Source: Lentimicrobiaceae bacterium (GTDB taxonomy: Bacteria > Bacteroidota > Bacteroidia > Bacteroidales > F082). From it: a DNA stretch of 64,000 nucleotides. This document shows positions 5,691-55,142 of this stretch, piece after piece; position 1 is the first letter of the stretch; each line of letters begins with the position of its first letter. The DNA lies in the NCBI GenBank assembly GCA_015061335.1, contig SUWT01000006.1, forward strand, positions 1 to 64,000, read 5' to 3'. The notes under the pieces were generated by a model. It worked only from the letters and a program-made list of their open reading frames with translations. It was not told the origin of the DNA and did no database searches. The translations under genes and the position numbers were made by a program.

Positions 5691-5706
5691 TTTTTAATTT
5701 TTTTTA

Positions 5707-5760
5707 AGACGTGTCAATAACATATTATTAATAATTGTTGAGTTATTGACGCGTCTCTAC
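5707..5760 (-). repeat. Hairpin element family A, copy 1 (reverse orientation)
   Basis: AGACGTGTCAATAA (5707-5720) / TTATTGACGCGTCT (5743-5756) followed by CTAC; the right arm supplies the last codons (VETRQ*) of the adjacent CDS. Confidence 0.75.
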
Positions 5761-31147: not shown

Positions 31148-32095
31148 ATGATGCGGCAATATTTTAAATCTAACGGAAAATTTATGCTGACAGGGGAGTA
31201 TCTGGTCTTGAAAGGTGCAACAGCTTTGGCTTTGCCCTTGAACCTTGGTCAAGATATGTGTGTGGATACATTAGATGATAATGATGGCAGAATCTATTGG
31301 AACGCATCTATAAAATCAACAGACATCGCTCAAAGACATTGGTTCTCTTCAATAATAAATAAAAATGACTTCAGTATTGTCGATACCGACAATAAAGAAA
31401 TAAGCAAACGATTGTCTGATATTTTATCTGAAATTAAATCGTTGAATGATAATGTTTTTAATGATTCTCATGACTATAGGTTTAGCACAATACTAGATTT
31501 CGACCCACATTGGGGACTTGGTAGCAGCTCAACATTGATTAATAATCTTTCTAAATGGGCGCAGATAGATCCTTACAAATTGCTGGAATCAACTTTTAAA
31601 GGTTCTGGCTACGATATCGCTTGTGCTGCATCTTTTTCTCCTATTTTCTATAAGATCAAGACTCAGCAGACAAGCCTTAACAGACAAGTTTCTTCCGCCG
31701 ATTTTAATCCTGATTTTAAAGATATGCTTTATTTCGTTTATCATGGCCATAAACAAAATTCTGCTAAAGAAGTAAAGGCTTTTCTTGGTAAAGATAAGGA
31801 TTATGAAAATGAAATATCAGCTGTTTCAGAGATAAGTGAATCATTGCCTAAGATAAAGAATATCAGTGATTTCTGCTATTTAATGAAAATGCATGAAGAT
31901 ATAATATCCTCATGTATATCTCATGATAAAATAGGCGATTCTTTTCCCGATTTCGAAGGTCAGCTTAAATCTCTTGGAGCATGGGGCGGCGACTTCTTTA
32001 TGGCTGCTACAGATTGGGATGAAATAAAGGTAAAATCTTATTTTGAAAATAAAGGTCATAATATTATTTTAAAGTATAAAGATATAATTTGTTGA
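31148..32095 (+). CDS. GYDIA-type GHMP kinase (possible phosphomevalonate kinase)
   Basis: SNGKFMLTGEYLVLKGATALALPL; WGLGSSSTLINNLS; GSGYDIACA. Confidence 0.85.
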   Translation: MMRQYFKSNGKFMLTGEYLVLKGATALALPLNLGQDMCVDTLDDNDGRIYWNASIKSTDIAQRHWFSSIINKNDFSIVDTDNKEISKRLSDILSEIKSLNDNVFNDSHDYRFSTILDFDPHWGLGSSSTLINNLSKWAQIDPYKLLESTFKGSGYDIACAASFSPIFYKIKTQQTSLNRQVSSADFNPDFKDMLYFVYHGHKQNSAKEVKAFLGKDKDYENEISAVSEISESLPKIKNISDFCYLMKMHEDIISSCISHDKIGDSFPDFEGQLKSLGAWGGDFFMAATDWDEIKVKSYFENKGHNIILKYKDIIC

Positions 32096-32103
32096 AAATT
32101 AAG

Positions 32104-32152
32104 GTGGAGACGCATCAATGTTACATTCAATAAAATACATTGACATGTCTCA
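32104..32152 (+). repeat. Hairpin element family A, copy 2 (intergenic)
   Basis: GAGACGCATCAATG (32107-32120) / CATTGACATGTCTC (32138-32151). Confidence 0.8.
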
Positions 32153-32180
32153 AAATTGAAAATTGATAATTAATTTACTA
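32153..32180. repeat. 7-bp-period array (AAATTGA AAATTGA TAATTAA TTTACTA)
   Basis: Directly abuts hairpin element copy 2; AT-rich, so weaker. Confidence 0.45.
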
Positions 32181-39469: not shown

Positions 39470-41293
39470 TTGATGATAAAACACTATAACATACCGATTT
39501 TTTTACCAGAACTCGCTTGTCCTTACAGATGTGTTTATTGTAATCAATTTAGTATTACAGGACTGAATGCCTTTGTTAAACCTGAGGATGTTAAAAATAT
39601 AATTGACAGTCATTTATCTTCCTTCAAAGAAGAAAACAGATTTGTTGAAGTTGCTTTCTTCGGAGGTAATTTCACAGGTCTTCCTATCAAAATGCAGAAC
39701 GATTATCTCGAGATAGTTCAGCCTTATCTTGATAAGAATCTCATTCACGGAATACGTTGCAGTACGCGTCCCGATTATATCGACCTTAAACGTGTAAGGG
39801 AAATAAAATCATACGGAATGCGTAATATCGAACTCGGAGCACAAAGTACCAACGACGATGTCTTGAAACATTGCAAACGTGGACATACTTATAACGATAT
39901 TGTTGAAGCATCGCAAATAATTCTCTCAGAAGATATTACTTTAGGATTGCAGATGATGATAGGTCTGCCTTCTGATTCTGAAGAGAAAGATTTTCAGACA
40001 GCCAAAGACATTGTAGATCTCGGTGCGAAGGAAACTCGTATCTATCCTTGTATCGTAGTGAAAGACACTGAATTAGAAATGATGTATAATTCAGGAGAAT
40101 ATAAAGCACTTTCTATTGAAGAAGCTGTTGTACGTTCTTCTAAATTATATACTTATTTTGCTGAAAATCAGGTGAAAGTACTACGAATCGGACTTCATGC
40201 TTCCGATGAATTGGATAACGAAGCCTACGTGGCAGGTCCTTATCATAAGAATTTTGCCGAGATGGTTTTCTCTCGCATCTGGAGAGATAATCTGAAAACC
40301 TTAAAACCTGAGAATCTGAGAAGTAAGGACATTATCATCAACGTTCCTGAATCGCAAATTAATCATGCTATTGGATGGAAAGGCGAGAATAAGAAGATGT
40401 TGTCGGAAAAGTTTGATGAGGTATTTTTTAAGGTCAACAAGACAACAAGTAGAGACGCGTCAATGACTCCTATAAAATTAACAAACATTGACACGTCTCA
40501 ACAACTAAATGAATTCTATTTTACCATCACTTTAAAAGAAGATTTGCCGACGATAATAGCTGACTCTAAGATGCCTGAGGAAGCGAAAAAGAATCTTAAA
40601 AAAATAGGTAACGTACTTTTTATCAACCCTACTTCAATAACTTACGATTCAATATCATCGCATCCTGACATTTTCTTTTTCCAAAAAGATGATGCTTTGA
40701 TTTATGCACCTAATGCTCCGAAAAAGATTGTCAAGGAATTGAAGAAGAGAAAGATAAATCTTATCGAAGGCGAGAAAGAAGTAGGGAAGAAATATCCGGA
40801 TACGGTTCCATATAATGCAGTCGGAATCGGAAATTTATTGATACATAGTTTGAAATATACCGATGCTAAAATTTTATCATCTTATAAAAATCATATCCAT
40901 GTAAATCAAGGATATACGCGATGTAACCTTTTGGCTTTGAACGAGAATTGTTTCATAACATCTGATATTGGCATTTTCAATGCCGTCAACGGACAACAGA
41001 CAACGGACAACAGACTTTGTTCTCACGAATCTCTTGTGGAGACGTACGGACGTACGTCTGAATACATATCCGTTCTTTACATCGACCCGAAGCAGATTAA
41101 CTTAGAAGGTCAGAAAAACGGATTTTTCCCCGGTTGCTGCGGAGTATGGAAGAACAATCTTATCGTTTGCGGTAGCACGAAATATTTAAAAGAAAAAGAA
41201 GAATTAGACCAATTCCTTCAAGACAACAATTTTAATCTCATAGAGTTATATGATGGAGAATTGATTGATGTGGGAAGCGTTTTTTTCAATTGA
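39470..41293 (+). CDS. Elp3-like radical SAM protein fused to a DUF6873/GME-like domain
   Basis: ACPYRCVYCNQFSITG (CxxxCxxC); VAFFGGNFTG; C-terminal PNAPKKIVKELKKRKINLIEGEKEVGKKYPDTVPYNAVGIGNLLIH...HVNQGYTRCN.. Confidence 0.8.
   Translation: MMIKHYNIPIFLPELACPYRCVYCNQFSITGLNAFVKPEDVKNIIDSHLSSFKEENRFVEVAFFGGNFTGLPIKMQNDYLEIVQPYLDKNLIHGIRCSTRPDYIDLKRVREIKSYGMRNIELGAQSTNDDVLKHCKRGHTYNDIVEASQIILSEDITLGLQMMIGLPSDSEEKDFQTAKDIVDLGAKETRIYPCIVVKDTELEMMYNSGEYKALSIEEAVVRSSKLYTYFAENQVKVLRIGLHASDELDNEAYVAGPYHKNFAEMVFSRIWRDNLKTLKPENLRSKDIIINVPESQINHAIGWKGENKKMLSEKFDEVFFKVNKTTSRDASMTPIKLTNIDTSQQLNEFYFTITLKEDLPTIIADSKMPEEAKKNLKKIGNVLFINPTSITYDSISSHPDIFFFQKDDALIYAPNAPKKIVKELKKRKINLIEGEKEVGKKYPDTVPYNAVGIGNLLIHSLKYTDAKILSSYKNHIHVNQGYTRCNLLALNENCFITSDIGIFNAVNGQQTTDNRLCSHESLVETYGRTSEYISVLYIDPKQINLEGQKNGFFPGCCGVWKNNLIVCGSTKYLKEKEELDQFLQDNNFNLIELYDGELIDVGSVFFN
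40449..40502 (+). repeat. Hairpin element family A, copy 3, in frame inside the radical SAM CDS
   Basis: GTAGAGACGCGTCAATG (40449-40465) / CATTGACACGTCTCAAC (40486-40502); encodes SRDASMTPIKLTNIDTSQQ. Confidence 0.85.
40985..41015 (+). repeat. 7-bp-period array inside the radical SAM CDS
   Basis: GTCAACG GACAACA GACAACG GACAACA GAC; encodes VNGQQTTDNRL. Confidence 0.8.
41040..41059. repeat. Short perfect palindrome related to family A, inside the radical SAM CDS
   Basis: AGACGTACG GA CGTACGTCT; encodes ETYGRTS. Confidence 0.7.
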
Positions 41294-42508: not shown

Positions 42509-44428
42509 ATGAAAAAAATTGAGCTTTTATCGCCGGCGAAGAATTTGGAAGTTGGTATTGCTGCTATCAACCATGGTGCTGATGCTGTGTATATTGGAGG
42601 ACCGAGTTTCGGGGCGAGAGAGAAAGTCGGGAATAGCATTGAAGACATTGAAACTCTTTGCAGACACGCGGCTCTCTTTGACGCTAAAGTATATGTCACG
42701 ATGAACACATTGCTGTTCGACAGCGAGTTGGAAGAAGCTCGCAAGATAGCATACGACTGCTGGAACGCCGGTGTCGATGCGCTCATAGTTCAAGATATGG
42801 CGTTGTTGAATATGGATATGCAGCCTATCGCCTTGCACGCTTCGACTCAATGTCATAATATTGATGCGGAGAAGGTTAAGTTCTTGGAAGACGTAGGTTT
42901 TTCTCAAGTCGTTTTGGCGAGAGAATTAAGCATCGAGCAGATAAAGGAAATCCGTTCAAGAACTACAGTTCCGTTGGAATATTTCGTTCACGGCGCGTTG
43001 TGCGTCTCGTATAGCGGACAATGTTATTTAAGCCACGTCATCGGCGGACGTTCCGCCAACAGAGGAGCCTGCGCTCAGCCTTGCCGTCTCGCATGGAATC
43101 TCGAAAATGCAGAAGGCAAACGATTGGTTTCCAACAGGCATCTTCTTTCATTGAGAGATTTGAATGACAGCAAAAACATAGAAGAACTCATCGATGCCGG
43201 AATCACTTCTTTCAAAATTGAAGGCAGACTGAAAGACATCGATTATGTTAAAAACGTCACCGCTTTTTATAGAAAGACGATTGACGAAATCATTGAAGGT
43301 CGCGACGATTTATGCAGAAGCTCTCGCGGTGAAAGCAATCCTTCTTTCTATCCGAATCCGGAGAAATCGTTTTCAAGAGGTTTCACCGATTATTTTATTC
43401 ACGGTCGCCAGAAATATATTGACGCTCCTTATTCGCCTAAGTCGATGGGAGAATATCTCGGAACAATAGAAAAAGTCAAGAATAAGTCGGTGACTATCAG
43501 GACAGGGAAAACGCTTCATAATGGCGACGGACTTTGTTTCTTAGACAGAGAGAATAATCTTTTAGGATTTAATGTAAATGCCGTCAGTAGAGACGCGTCA
43601 ATGTTACCTACAATAAAACACATTGACACGTCTAAAAATCGACAAATTCAACGTCAGACGGTTACAAGCAATACCGACATTTCGATGATGACGAGATTTA
43701 AGATTGAGGGAAGCAAGATTTTCAGAAATTCGGATTTGGTATGGCAGAAAGAAGTCGAGAAATCGCAAGGTAACAGAAAGATTAAAATCGACTTGAGATT
43801 TACCGATACAGAAGACGGATTTGCTTTGTCGGCAAAATTACATAATGAAGATTCAGAATATGTTACGACGAATATTTCGATAGAAAAAGAAATCGCCAAC
43901 AATGCAGAAAAGGCGTTAGAAAATATTAAGAATAAAATATCGCAATGGGGCGACACGGAATTTTCGGTGGCAAAAATTGAAATATTTTTTGACAACAGAC
44001 AACAGACAACGGCCTATTTCATTCGCACATCGGTTCTTGGCGAGATGAAGAAAGATTTGGTGGAGAAATTGAAATCATATCTCATTGATAAACATCGTAA
44101 TGAAAGAGAGACATTTGTAAAACCAAAAACAAATGCGATTTATCCTAAAGAAAGTCTCTCTTATCTCGGCAATGTCATCAACAATAAATCGAGAGAGTTT
44201 TATGAACTTCATGGCGTTATAGATGTTGAAGATGGATTGGAAAAACTCAAATCTAATGACGAGCTTGTTGTAATGACGACAAAACATTGTATTCGTTACG
44301 CTAACAATATATGTAGCAAAGAAATCGGGAAACCGGCGACATCGTTATATTTGGTCAACGACAAAGGACGTTTCCGTCTCGACTTCGATTGCAGAAATTG
44401 TTGCATGAAAGTGATTAAAGAGAAATAA
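42509..44428 (+). CDS. Peptidase U32 family protein
   Basis: [72 protein letters not shown]. Confidence 0.93.
43587..43635 (+). repeat. Hairpin element family A, copy 4, in frame inside the U32 CDS
   Basis: GTAGAGACGCGTCAATG (43587-43603) / CATTGACACGTCTA (43621-43634); encodes [17 protein letters not shown]. Confidence 0.85.
43991..44012 (+). repeat. 7-bp-period array inside the U32 CDS
   Basis: GACAACA GACAACA GACAACG G; encodes DNRQQTT. Confidence 0.7.
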
Positions 44429-51172: not shown

Positions 51173-51991
51173 ATGAGAAAAATAGTTTTATTGTTCTGTG
51201 TGTTGTCGATAGTGGCAGTTTCAAGTTTTACATCATGTGTTTCCATGAAGAAAATATTATATCTTCAGGATGAGAGCATGTTGAACGATAGTGTATTTAT
51301 GTCGATAGAATACCCAAATGAACGTTCATTTAATTATAAAGTTCAGCCTGGTGATAATTTGTACATAAGAATTTCTAGTCTTGATGAGAAATTTGCAGCA
51401 TATTTCAACCTCATGAATCAGGGTGCTTATATGAACACCAGTACTCAATATAGCAGTGGTAATGCCAGCATTTACCTTAACGGATATACGGTAGGTGATG
51501 ATGGAAATATTGAGATTCCCTTTGCAGGAAAAGTGTTTGTAAAAGATCTTACCGTTGATGAGATACAGTACAAGATTCAAGAAATCATGGGAGAATATCT
51601 CCGTCAGACAGTGGTTTACGTCAAGCTTGGAGTTTTCAACTTGACAATACTTGGTGAAGTAGCCCGTCCAGGACAATACCAGATATATCAATCTGACATT
51701 AATTTGTTCCAAGCTCTGGCTTTGGCTGGTAATGCAACAGATTATGCCAATAAATCTAATATCAAAATCATCCACCAAACACCTAAAGGATCTCAAATCG
51801 TTAAGGTTAATATGAATGATGCAGATATTTTATCATCTCCTGATTATTATCTGAAACCAAACGACATCATCTATGTAGAACCATTGAAGATGAAACAATA
51901 TGGTTTCACCAGCGTACCATACGGTACAATCATCTCAGCCATGTCGCTGTTGGTTACATGTCTGACATTCGTTATAGTTTATATGCAATAA
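51173..51991 (+). CDS. Wza-like polysaccharide export outer-membrane protein
   Basis: SSFTSCVSMKKILYLQD lipobox; YKVQPGDNLYIRISS; SLBB region VTILGEVARPGQY-like LTILGEVARPGQYQIY. Confidence 0.93.
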   Translation: MRKIVLLFCVLSIVAVSSFTSCVSMKKILYLQDESMLNDSVFMSIEYPNERSFNYKVQPGDNLYIRISSLDEKFAAYFNLMNQGAYMNTSTQYSSGNASIYLNGYTVGDDGNIEIPFAGKVFVKDLTVDEIQYKIQEIMGEYLRQTVVYVKLGVFNLTILGEVARPGQYQIYQSDINLFQALALAGNATDYANKSNIKIIHQTPKGSQIVKVNMNDADILSSPDYYLKPNDIIYVEPLKMKQYGFTSVPYGTIISAMSLLVTCLTFVIVYMQ

Positions 51992-52011
51992 TTCTGAAAA
52001 TAATTTTTTAT

Positions 52012-54525
52012 ATGGATAATACAGAATTTCAAAACAAACCTCAGTATCAAGAAGAAGAAGTCCTTGATCTGAAAAATATCATTGTAAAAGTTCTTAGTTA
52101 TTGGTATTTATTTGTCGCAGGCGTTCTTATCGCTTTAGTGATCGGTTTTATTTATAACAGATACACTCCAAGTGTATATCAGGTGTCGGCATCAGTATAT
52201 GTAAAGGAGGATAAAATGACCATCGACCCTACATCTATGATGACGGGCTTGACATTTAAATCTAATATCAATATTGATAATGAAATTGGAATATTACAAT
52301 CGTTTACATTAAAAGAAAGAGCTATAAAAGAGTTAGAGTTCTTTAACGTTTCTTATTATTTGACTGGTCGTGTGGCGACACGTGAGATTTATAAAGAAAC
52401 TCCTTTTAATGTCGAGATAGATTACGATACATTACAGACTGTCGGTATCAAATATAGAATAGATTTCATCGATCAGGAAAGTTATGTGTTGACAACACAA
52501 GAAGGTCGCCGCGGTGTTTATGATTATTCTAAAGATATTAATGTCGGACCTATTGAAGTAATGGAGACCAGCAATATCTACAAATTTGGAGAATGGGTTG
52601 ACAACGGTTATAACAGATTCCGTGTCGTTCTCAATAGCAATTATACTCCTATTGATGAAACTGATGAGGAAGCTAAAGAAAAAAGCAAATACATGAAATA
52701 TAGCTTCATCATCAATAGTAGATTAGCTCTTATATCTCAGTTTAGCAGCCTGTCTATTGCTCAAAGTACAAAAATGTCTTCTATTTTGAATATGTCTATT
52801 CAAGGTCAGAATCCTCAGAAGATAACAGATTATCTTAACAAGTTGTTGGAAGAATATATGGAAAGAAACTTGGAGCAAAAGAATCTTGTTTCTGAAAATA
52901 CAGTGAAGTTTATTGATTTACAACTGGTTGGTATTGAAGAGGCTTTGAATGAAGCTGAGTTGGATTTACAAAAATTCCAGGAAGGTAATGAATTTATGGA
53001 TTTGAGTACTCAGTCCAGAACGGCTTATGGTCATCTTAAAGAAGTTGAGAAACGTAAAGCAGAACTTGAACTTAGTATCAAATATTATGAAAACCTTTTA
53101 GATTATATCAAAAAGAATATTGATGATGTCGATAAATTAGTTGTGCCAAGTGCTATGGGTATTCAAGACCAGATTCTTAACAAACTTGTTCTTGATTTGA
53201 TCGCATTATCATCTGAAAAAGCAAGATTGTTGACAACATCTGCAGAGAAAAACCCTGTCGTTCTAAATATCGACGAGCTAATTTTCCAAACAAAGAAACG
53301 TTTGTTGGAAAATATCGAAAATATGATTAACAATACTAATGTCACAATAGATGAGTTAACTCGTCAGATTCAAGAATATGAAGCTCAAATCAATGAATTG
53401 CCTACAACACAACGTATGTATTTGGGCTATGAACGTAAATTCTCTCTTAATGATGAACTTTATAAGTTTTTGATGCAGAAACGTGCTGAGGCTCAGATTG
53501 TTATGGCAAGCAATAGCCCTGATAACAGTGTTATCGATGCCGCTAGAGTGTCTAGAGCCAGAAAGGTAGCACCTAGAAGCATGATGATATATTTGGTATG
53601 TATGGTTATGGGTTGTGCTATCCCTGCAGCATTCATATTCCTAAAGGAAATCTTAAATACTAAGATACTTGAAAGAAGTGATATTGAAAAGATTACCAAA
53701 ATACCTATTATCGGTCAAATACCTTATACCAGTCCTGCTGAGGCTAAGTCGAGTTCAACATTAGTAATTGATTCTCCTAAATCTCCTGTATCTGAAGCCT
53801 TTAGATCTATCAGAACTAATATTGAATATATTGTCCAAGGTAAGGATAAATGTGTGTTTTCTGTCATAGCCGACTCTCCTCATATTGGTAAGACATATAT
53901 TTCCATCAATATGGCATCTATCTATGCCATGTATGGTAAGAAAACTGTTTTAGTAGGTATGGACCTTAGAAAGCCTCGTCTATATCAAGAGTTCAACTTG
54001 TCAAATAAGCTTGGCGTAAGTTCATATTTAGCAGGTAAAGCATCTATAAGTGAGATCGTTCAACATTCTGGTAAACTGCCTACTCTTGATATTATTACAG
54101 CAGGTCCTGTTCCACCAAATCCAGCAGAACTTATCGCTTCTGACCGTTGTACCGAGTTCTTCAATCAATTAAAAGAGATCTATGATTACATTATTATCGA
54201 TACTCCTCCTCTCATGTGGGTTACAGATGCTCTCCTTTTGATGAAGCATGTTGATACCTCTATATATGTTGTCCGTCAGAATGAAACTAATAAGAAAGCC
54301 TTCGAAACTGTTATCAAAGACTTGGAAAATCGTAAATGTAACATAAGTTTGGTAGTAAACGGTATCAACTATAAAGGATTATATGGCTATCGTTACAGCT
54401 ATGGTTATGGCGGTTATGGCTATGGTTATGGCTATGGATACGGTTATGGTAAAGGTTATGGCTATGGTAGTGGTTATTATGACGAAGAACATGACCCTAA
54501 GAAAAAACACAGAAATAAAAGATAA
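52012..54525 (+). CDS. Wzc-like bacterial tyrosine kinase / chain-length determinant with Gly-Tyr-rich tail
   Basis: Wzz domain; SPHIGKTYISINMA Walker A; VGMDLRKPRL; YIIIDTPP; C-terminal (GY)n tract. Confidence 0.93.
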   Translation: MDNTEFQNKPQYQEEEVLDLKNIIVKVLSYWYLFVAGVLIALVIGFIYNRYTPSVYQVSASVYVKEDKMTIDPTSMMTGLTFKSNINIDNEIGILQSFTLKERAIKELEFFNVSYYLTGRVATREIYKETPFNVEIDYDTLQTVGIKYRIDFIDQESYVLTTQEGRRGVYDYSKDINVGPIEVMETSNIYKFGEWVDNGYNRFRVVLNSNYTPIDETDEEAKEKSKYMKYSFIINSRLALISQFSSLSIAQSTKMSSILNMSIQGQNPQKITDYLNKLLEEYMERNLEQKNLVSENTVKFIDLQLVGIEEALNEAELDLQKFQEGNEFMDLSTQSRTAYGHLKEVEKRKAELELSIKYYENLLDYIKKNIDDVDKLVVPSAMGIQDQILNKLVLDLIALSSEKARLLTTSAEKNPVVLNIDELIFQTKKRLLENIENMINNTNVTIDELTRQIQEYEAQINELPTTQRMYLGYERKFSLNDELYKFLMQKRAEAQIVMASNSPDNSVIDAARVSRARKVAPRSMMIYLVCMVMGCAIPAAFIFLKEILNTKILERSDIEKITKIPIIGQIPYTSPAEAKSSSTLVIDSPKSPVSEAFRSIRTNIEYIVQGKDKCVFSVIADSPHIGKTYISINMASIYAMYGKKTVLVGMDLRKPRLYQEFNLSNKLGVSSYLAGKASISEIVQHSGKLPTLDIITAGPVPPNPAELIASDRCTEFFNQLKEIYDYIIIDTPPLMWVTDALLLMKHVDTSIYVVRQNETNKKAFETVIKDLENRKCNISLVVNGINYKGLYGYRYSYGYGGYGYGYGYGYGYGKGYGYGSGYYDEEHDPKKKHRNKR

Positions 54526-55065: not shown

Positions 55066-55091
55066 AGTGACCTCATAATTGTAATTAAAAT

Positions 55092-55142
55092 GAGACGTAT
55101 CAATGATTCCTGAAATATAAATAATCATTGATACGTCTCTAC
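55092..55142 (-). repeat. Hairpin element family A, copy 5 (reverse orientation; convergent intergenic)
   Basis: GAGACGTATCAATGATT (55092-55108) / AATCATTGATACGTCTC (55123-55139) then TAC. Confidence 0.85.

Follow-up and report, generated by a model that had tools for sequence, protein, structure and literature searches.

The imperfect palindrome GTAGAGACGCGTCAATG-TTACCTACAATAAAACA-CATTGACACGTCT, located at positions 43587-43637 (51 nt) inside a U32/DUF3656 gene, is probably one copy of a dispersed, non-autonomous, GTAG-tagged REP-like palindrome that survives in genes only if the reading frame is kept and the receiving loop is permissive. All positions refer to the window, that is, the whole stretch of 64,000 nucleotides that was analysed; the genome to which it belongs (assembly of 2.58 Mb) is designated G000.

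The palindromic element of the U32 gene

The element is formed by a GTAG foot, a stem of 14 positions with one C.A mismatch and a 17-nt AT-rich loop. Its folding energy is -16.3 kcal/mol (z -4.45) and none of 200 shuffled sequences folded equally well, in agreement with the preliminary description of this DNA, which had placed an in-frame hairpin element in the U32 gene. The 51 nucleotides are read in frame as 17 residues, between the Peptidase_U32 (PF01136) and DUF3656 (PF12392) domains. We take this combination of domains to be the layout of RlhA/YdcP-like RNA hydroxylases, and for this reason 'peptidase' is likely a misnomer for the ORF. The palindromes of the window, their host genes and the neighbouring tandem arrays are the following:

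5703-5760, minus strand: extragenic copy (covariance model)
32104-32154, plus strand: extragenic copy (covariance model)
39470-41293, plus strand: radical SAM/DUF6873 fusion ORF (Pfam domains), host of the radical SAM copy
40432-40448, plus strand: 8-mer tandem array GTCAACAA GACAACAA, adjoining the GTAG end of the radical SAM copy
40449-40502, plus strand: radical SAM copy, in frame between Radical_SAM_C and DUF6873 (72.7 bits)
42509-44428, plus strand: host gene of the U32 family with DUF3656 (639 aa; PF01136 and PF12392)
43587-43637, plus strand: palindromic element of the U32 gene (67.4 bits with covariance model R1)
43991-44015, plus strand: tandem array of the 7-mer GACAACA in the same U32 gene, in frame (12 residues), a second kind of repeat insert
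55089-55142, minus strand: extragenic copy, flanked by the 3' ends of two convergent ORFs

The AlphaFold model of the U32 protein has a mean pLDDT of 89, and its sole segment below 50 (residues 364-377) is the peptide encoded by the element, which forms a loop flanked by strands 351-361 and 381-387. A dip to 73 at residues 491-500 corresponds to the array at 43991-44015. When the model was used as a Foldseek query, it matched the U32 structure 5d88 and generic TIM barrels, and nothing else.

With up to 3 mismatches allowed, the window contains 10 occurrences of the 16-base left arm, where 0.39 would be expected, and the radical SAM copy encodes the peptide SRDASMTPIKLTNIDTSQ. We also observed that the radical SAM and U32 genes each carry one in-frame GACAACR 7-mer array (40978-41016 and 43991-44015), encoding NGQQTTDNR and DNRQQTT, respectively, and that similar arrays are present in further G000 proteins (loci L160 and L165). 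Another repeat of the window, the tandem TATGGC/TATGGT at 54378-54482, encodes a GY-rich tail close to the end of ORF 51958-54525.

A palindrome family dispersed in the genome and its relatives

The half-site GAGACGYRTCAATG, searched with at most one mismatch, was found 147 times in the G000 assembly, and the reversed control pattern was not found at all. A covariance model trained on 15 copies gave 135 matches counted on both strands, which places the family at about 80-90 loci; 92 elements are present in the G000 stretches analysed with the model when low scorers are counted. The left foot GTAG, the last G of which is paired, is present in 131 of 153 copies, while the right end is variable, and 132 of the 153 have a C.A or T.G mismatch at one stem position. 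The family has a stem of 14 positions with one mismatch, a loop of about 17-27 nt and an element length of mostly 51-60 nt. No Rfam family was matched at gathering thresholds, and a sub-threshold match to mir-509 near the element (E 0.22) was discarded as chance.

Some copies are themselves repeated: palindromes are tandemly duplicated on contigs C137, C14 and C64, with a cluster of four at C137:23368-23649 spaced by about 66-100 bp. Many G000 copies lie close to contig ends and probably break the assembly.

The relatives compared are ruminant-gut Bacteroidales MAGs. Exact half-sites are plentiful in G000 and in one of 35 other congeners (G009), and the covariance model adds G063, so that the family is abundant in only 3 of 40 congeners, the remaining ones having few and weak matches. 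In the genus, 39 of 40 genomes have a shorter sister form with perfect pairing, GTAGRGACG-N-CGTCYCTAC, which reaches 70 copies at most; in a sample of 297 genomes from the whole phylum, 56 have it. We regard the G000 element as one lineage's variant of the GTAGAGACG...CGTCTCTAC palindromes, a phylum-wide set.

Host genes, reading frames and orientation

Most copies are extragenic; 10 of the 92 G000 copies fall within ORFs of at least 150 aa. One of these ten (L159) was left out of the secure intragenic cases together with L213, as both lie upstream of a likely signal peptide and may belong to a 5' UTR. The other nine, a minimum for intragenic copies in Pfam-recognised genes, are all in sense orientation and occupy eight genes: radical SAM, U32, GH20 (two copies), PG_1098-like methyltransferase, ABC-2 permease, YjeF/NnrD, glycosyltransferase and DUF819.

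Two reading frames are used by the ten copies, xRDASM in seven and VETxQ in three, and the third frame is barred because the TAG inside GTAG is a stop codon. Among the sister palindromes of the congeners, 14 of 74 are intragenic, ten of them in the VET frame and four in the RD frame. The idea that only one frame is tolerated therefore fails. Other claims of the preliminary description hold: the host genes belong to different Pfam families, and the copies of the U32 and radical SAM genes are indeed independent of each other, with the qualification that the U32 copy also occurs in other species, since additional U32 copies were found in MAGs of the same sub-clade.

Every one of the 13 intragenic copies, whether from G000 or from a relative, is in sense orientation. 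Open frames in extragenic copies are more frequent in antisense (146) than in sense (65), and stop codons therefore do not explain the sense bias. For nine independent events, our own arithmetic on heuristic ORF calls gives 0.31^9, about 3e-5. Multiple in-frame insertions were also seen in single ORFs of relatives, such as the U32 gene of G002 (L056), with four in-frame GTAG palindromes, and a 419-aa ORF of G003 (L339), with three.

Empty sites, hotspots and tandem arrays

The U32 linker is empty (AVAENKTRSLTQTVT) in six close relatives (L237, L239, L240, L241, L243 and L244). Compared with the empty allele, the filled allele L235 fits an insertion of 47-48 nt, and at this one site (L235 filled, L237 empty) no target-site duplication is visible. 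The methyltransferase copy is a clean insert of 25 residues relative to two orthologues, and further pairs of filled and empty sites were found for GH20, ABC-2 and the gene at 31148-32095. This last gene, probably GHMP-kinase-like as judged from motifs only, is empty in G000, and its G063 orthologue has an in-frame copy (L194:8903-8956). The empty U32 orthologues and the dispersed copies support the earlier proposal of an insertion element. The peptide is not native to U32, as neither the six close relatives nor more distant U32 proteins have the SRDASM...IDTS peptide at this place; judging from the empty orthologues and from the position of the peptide in the only stretch of the model below pLDDT 50, it also looks nearly neutral for the protein, as had been suggested.

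The same sites were used repeatedly. In more distant congeners (G021, G035, G016 and G002) the U32 linker carries different GTAGAGACG...CGTCTCTAC palindromes, and congener U32 genes have palindromes also near positions 449 and 538. The radical SAM linker contains other palindromes in congeners and a tandem array in G063. Arrays of 7- or 8-mers adjoin the GTAG end in 34.5% of the copies, the figure being 0.8% for random segments and 0.3% for shuffled flanks. They were also detected at homologous sites free of palindromes, in U32 (8-mer arrays, G009 and L238), radical SAM (G063), GH20 (G063 and G009), ABC-2 (G063) and NnrD (G063), with control fractions of 0.007 to 0.022; weaker arrays were found in G009 for ABC-2 (0.063) and radical SAM (0.031). 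The same test found no array in the empty U32 linker. Arrays and palindromes thus share sites, and either the arrays are landing pads or both merely accumulate in tolerant loops. Intragenic REPs and RPEs have been published before (PMC3733652, PMC10969869), and recurrent hotspots common to palindromes and 7-8-mer arrays are apparently new.

Two further readings bear on this sharing of sites. We consider it a tentative possibility that palindromes and 7-8-mer arrays are products of one loop-diversifying process, in which the arrays would flag the permissive loops of proteins and serve as landing pads, and alleles with a palindrome would cross species by short recombination or homing. It is unlikely that, without any transposition, the palindromes and arrays arise and are replaced where they stand through slippage and template switching, unconstrained loops simply tolerating them: such turnover would suit the alternation of both at the same sites, the tandem duplications on three contigs and the lack of a detected transposase, but the difference between L235 and the empty allele resembles an insertion, and the presence of almost the same arms, with related loops, at some 80-90 unrelated loci requires copying from a common source.

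Evolution of the U32 copy

In a well-supported DNA tree of the U32 gene, constructed with the linker left out, the palindrome state is scattered and at least four changes are needed. The 51-nt element is identical in G000 and L234 (G063), in which 30% of the fourfold sites of the gene differ, and it is about 3 nt apart in G000 and L236, in which 50% of the fourfold sites differ. The U32 copies of four species do not differ in their arms, and the U32 loop sequence did not recur elsewhere in the stretches of G000 and its relatives that were examined. The extragenic pair L139/L198, orthologous in G000 and G063, has likewise hardly changed.

This identity together with the scattered state is not accounted for if a neutral insert was simply inherited vertically, which counts against our preferred reading of a dispersed REP-like element. 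The identity could result from species-to-species exchange, from parallel insertions of recent date or from constraint on the nucleotides. A joint process acting on arrays and palindromes, if true, would account for a U32 palindrome scattered on the gene tree and yet (nearly) identical in sequence.

That the hairpin is kept for a role in the mRNA (pausing, stability or attenuation) would agree with its stable fold, with the invariant U32 arms and with the conserved extragenic orthologue; we regard it as improbable, given that the element matches no Rfam family, is missing in most orthologues and resides in functionally unrelated genes, and that arms nearly invariant across the whole family are what recent spread predicts. 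That the peptide belongs natively to the U32 enzyme and serves a function in it, its coding DNA being palindromic by chance, is highly improbable: the identity between G000 and G063 is readable as constraint, but this explanation is already largely refuted by the six empty orthologues, and the absence from more distant U32 proteins, the presence of the same DNA in unrelated genes and between genes, and the low predicted order also oppose it.

Spread of the element and comparison with known systems

According to the REP-like model, the element would have risen to many copies within a single sub-clade of a Bacteroidales genus of the ruminant gut, inserting without visible target-site duplication and frequently next to 7-8-bp tandem arrays. 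Selection would have purged most of the insertions that hit genes, and the surviving intragenic copies would be those that keep the frame, avoid the TAG frame and are located in a surface loop or a linker, for example the one between U32 and DUF3656. There the insert would add a disordered, probably neutral peptide. The element may move as a single-stranded hairpin, through a Y1/HUH-type enzyme acting in trans.

The Y1 transposase profile PF01797 had no match in G000 (92% complete) or G063 and one in G009, and the surroundings of eight Y1 genes from congeners (about 3.3 kb) contain no GTAGRGACG foot. These results count against the model: the RAYT association that defines REPs fails here, and we therefore call the family REP-like and not a proven REP.

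The closest description is that of the GTAG-tagged REPs (Di Nocera et al. 2013, PMC3733652), which are likewise short, high-copy palindromes with a GTAG foot at one end only, mostly extragenic and with some in-frame copies in unrelated genes; neutral placement of intragenic REPs in linkers was already proposed in that work. Their stems of 5-13 bp and loops of 2-20 nt compare with about 14 positions and 17-27 nt here, and a stem and loop longer than in most described REPs also count against the REP-like model. Moreover, the family described here differs by the 7-8-mer arrays as flanks and by the lack of a detected RAYT/Y1 gene, and in the same paper Bacteroidetes are entered for CGTC elements only, not GTAG.

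Rickettsia palindromic elements (RPEs) are also in-frame palindromes in many unrelated protein genes, and in our family empty orthologues were found for such insertions. PMC10969869, citing Ogata et al. (2000, 2002), gives about 150 bp and ten families, and treats RPE-4/6 as CGTC-type REPs; RPEs belong to another phylum and are compared here by description. The E. coli REPs have in common with our element the GTAG foot and a conserved stem mismatch, both required for recognition of the single-stranded hairpin by TnpA-REP (PMC8266576). In contrast to E. coli, which encodes TnpA-REP, no Y1 gene was found here, and a similar mobilisation is what we infer. Bacterial MITEs are comparable as small, non-autonomous, dispersed elements with inverted repeats, but our element is smaller (about 50 bp), consists almost entirely of the stem-loop and shows no target-site duplication. 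Among the matches listed, a literature search with the foot sequence returned unrelated papers only.

Intragenic palindromes have so far been reported mainly from Rickettsia and some REP-rich genomes. This uncultured Bacteroidales genus offers replicated natural experiments, in which orthologous loops are empty, carry a palindrome or carry a tandem array. With them one can test which loops accept inserts, whether the insertions are targeted and whether the added peptides are neutral.
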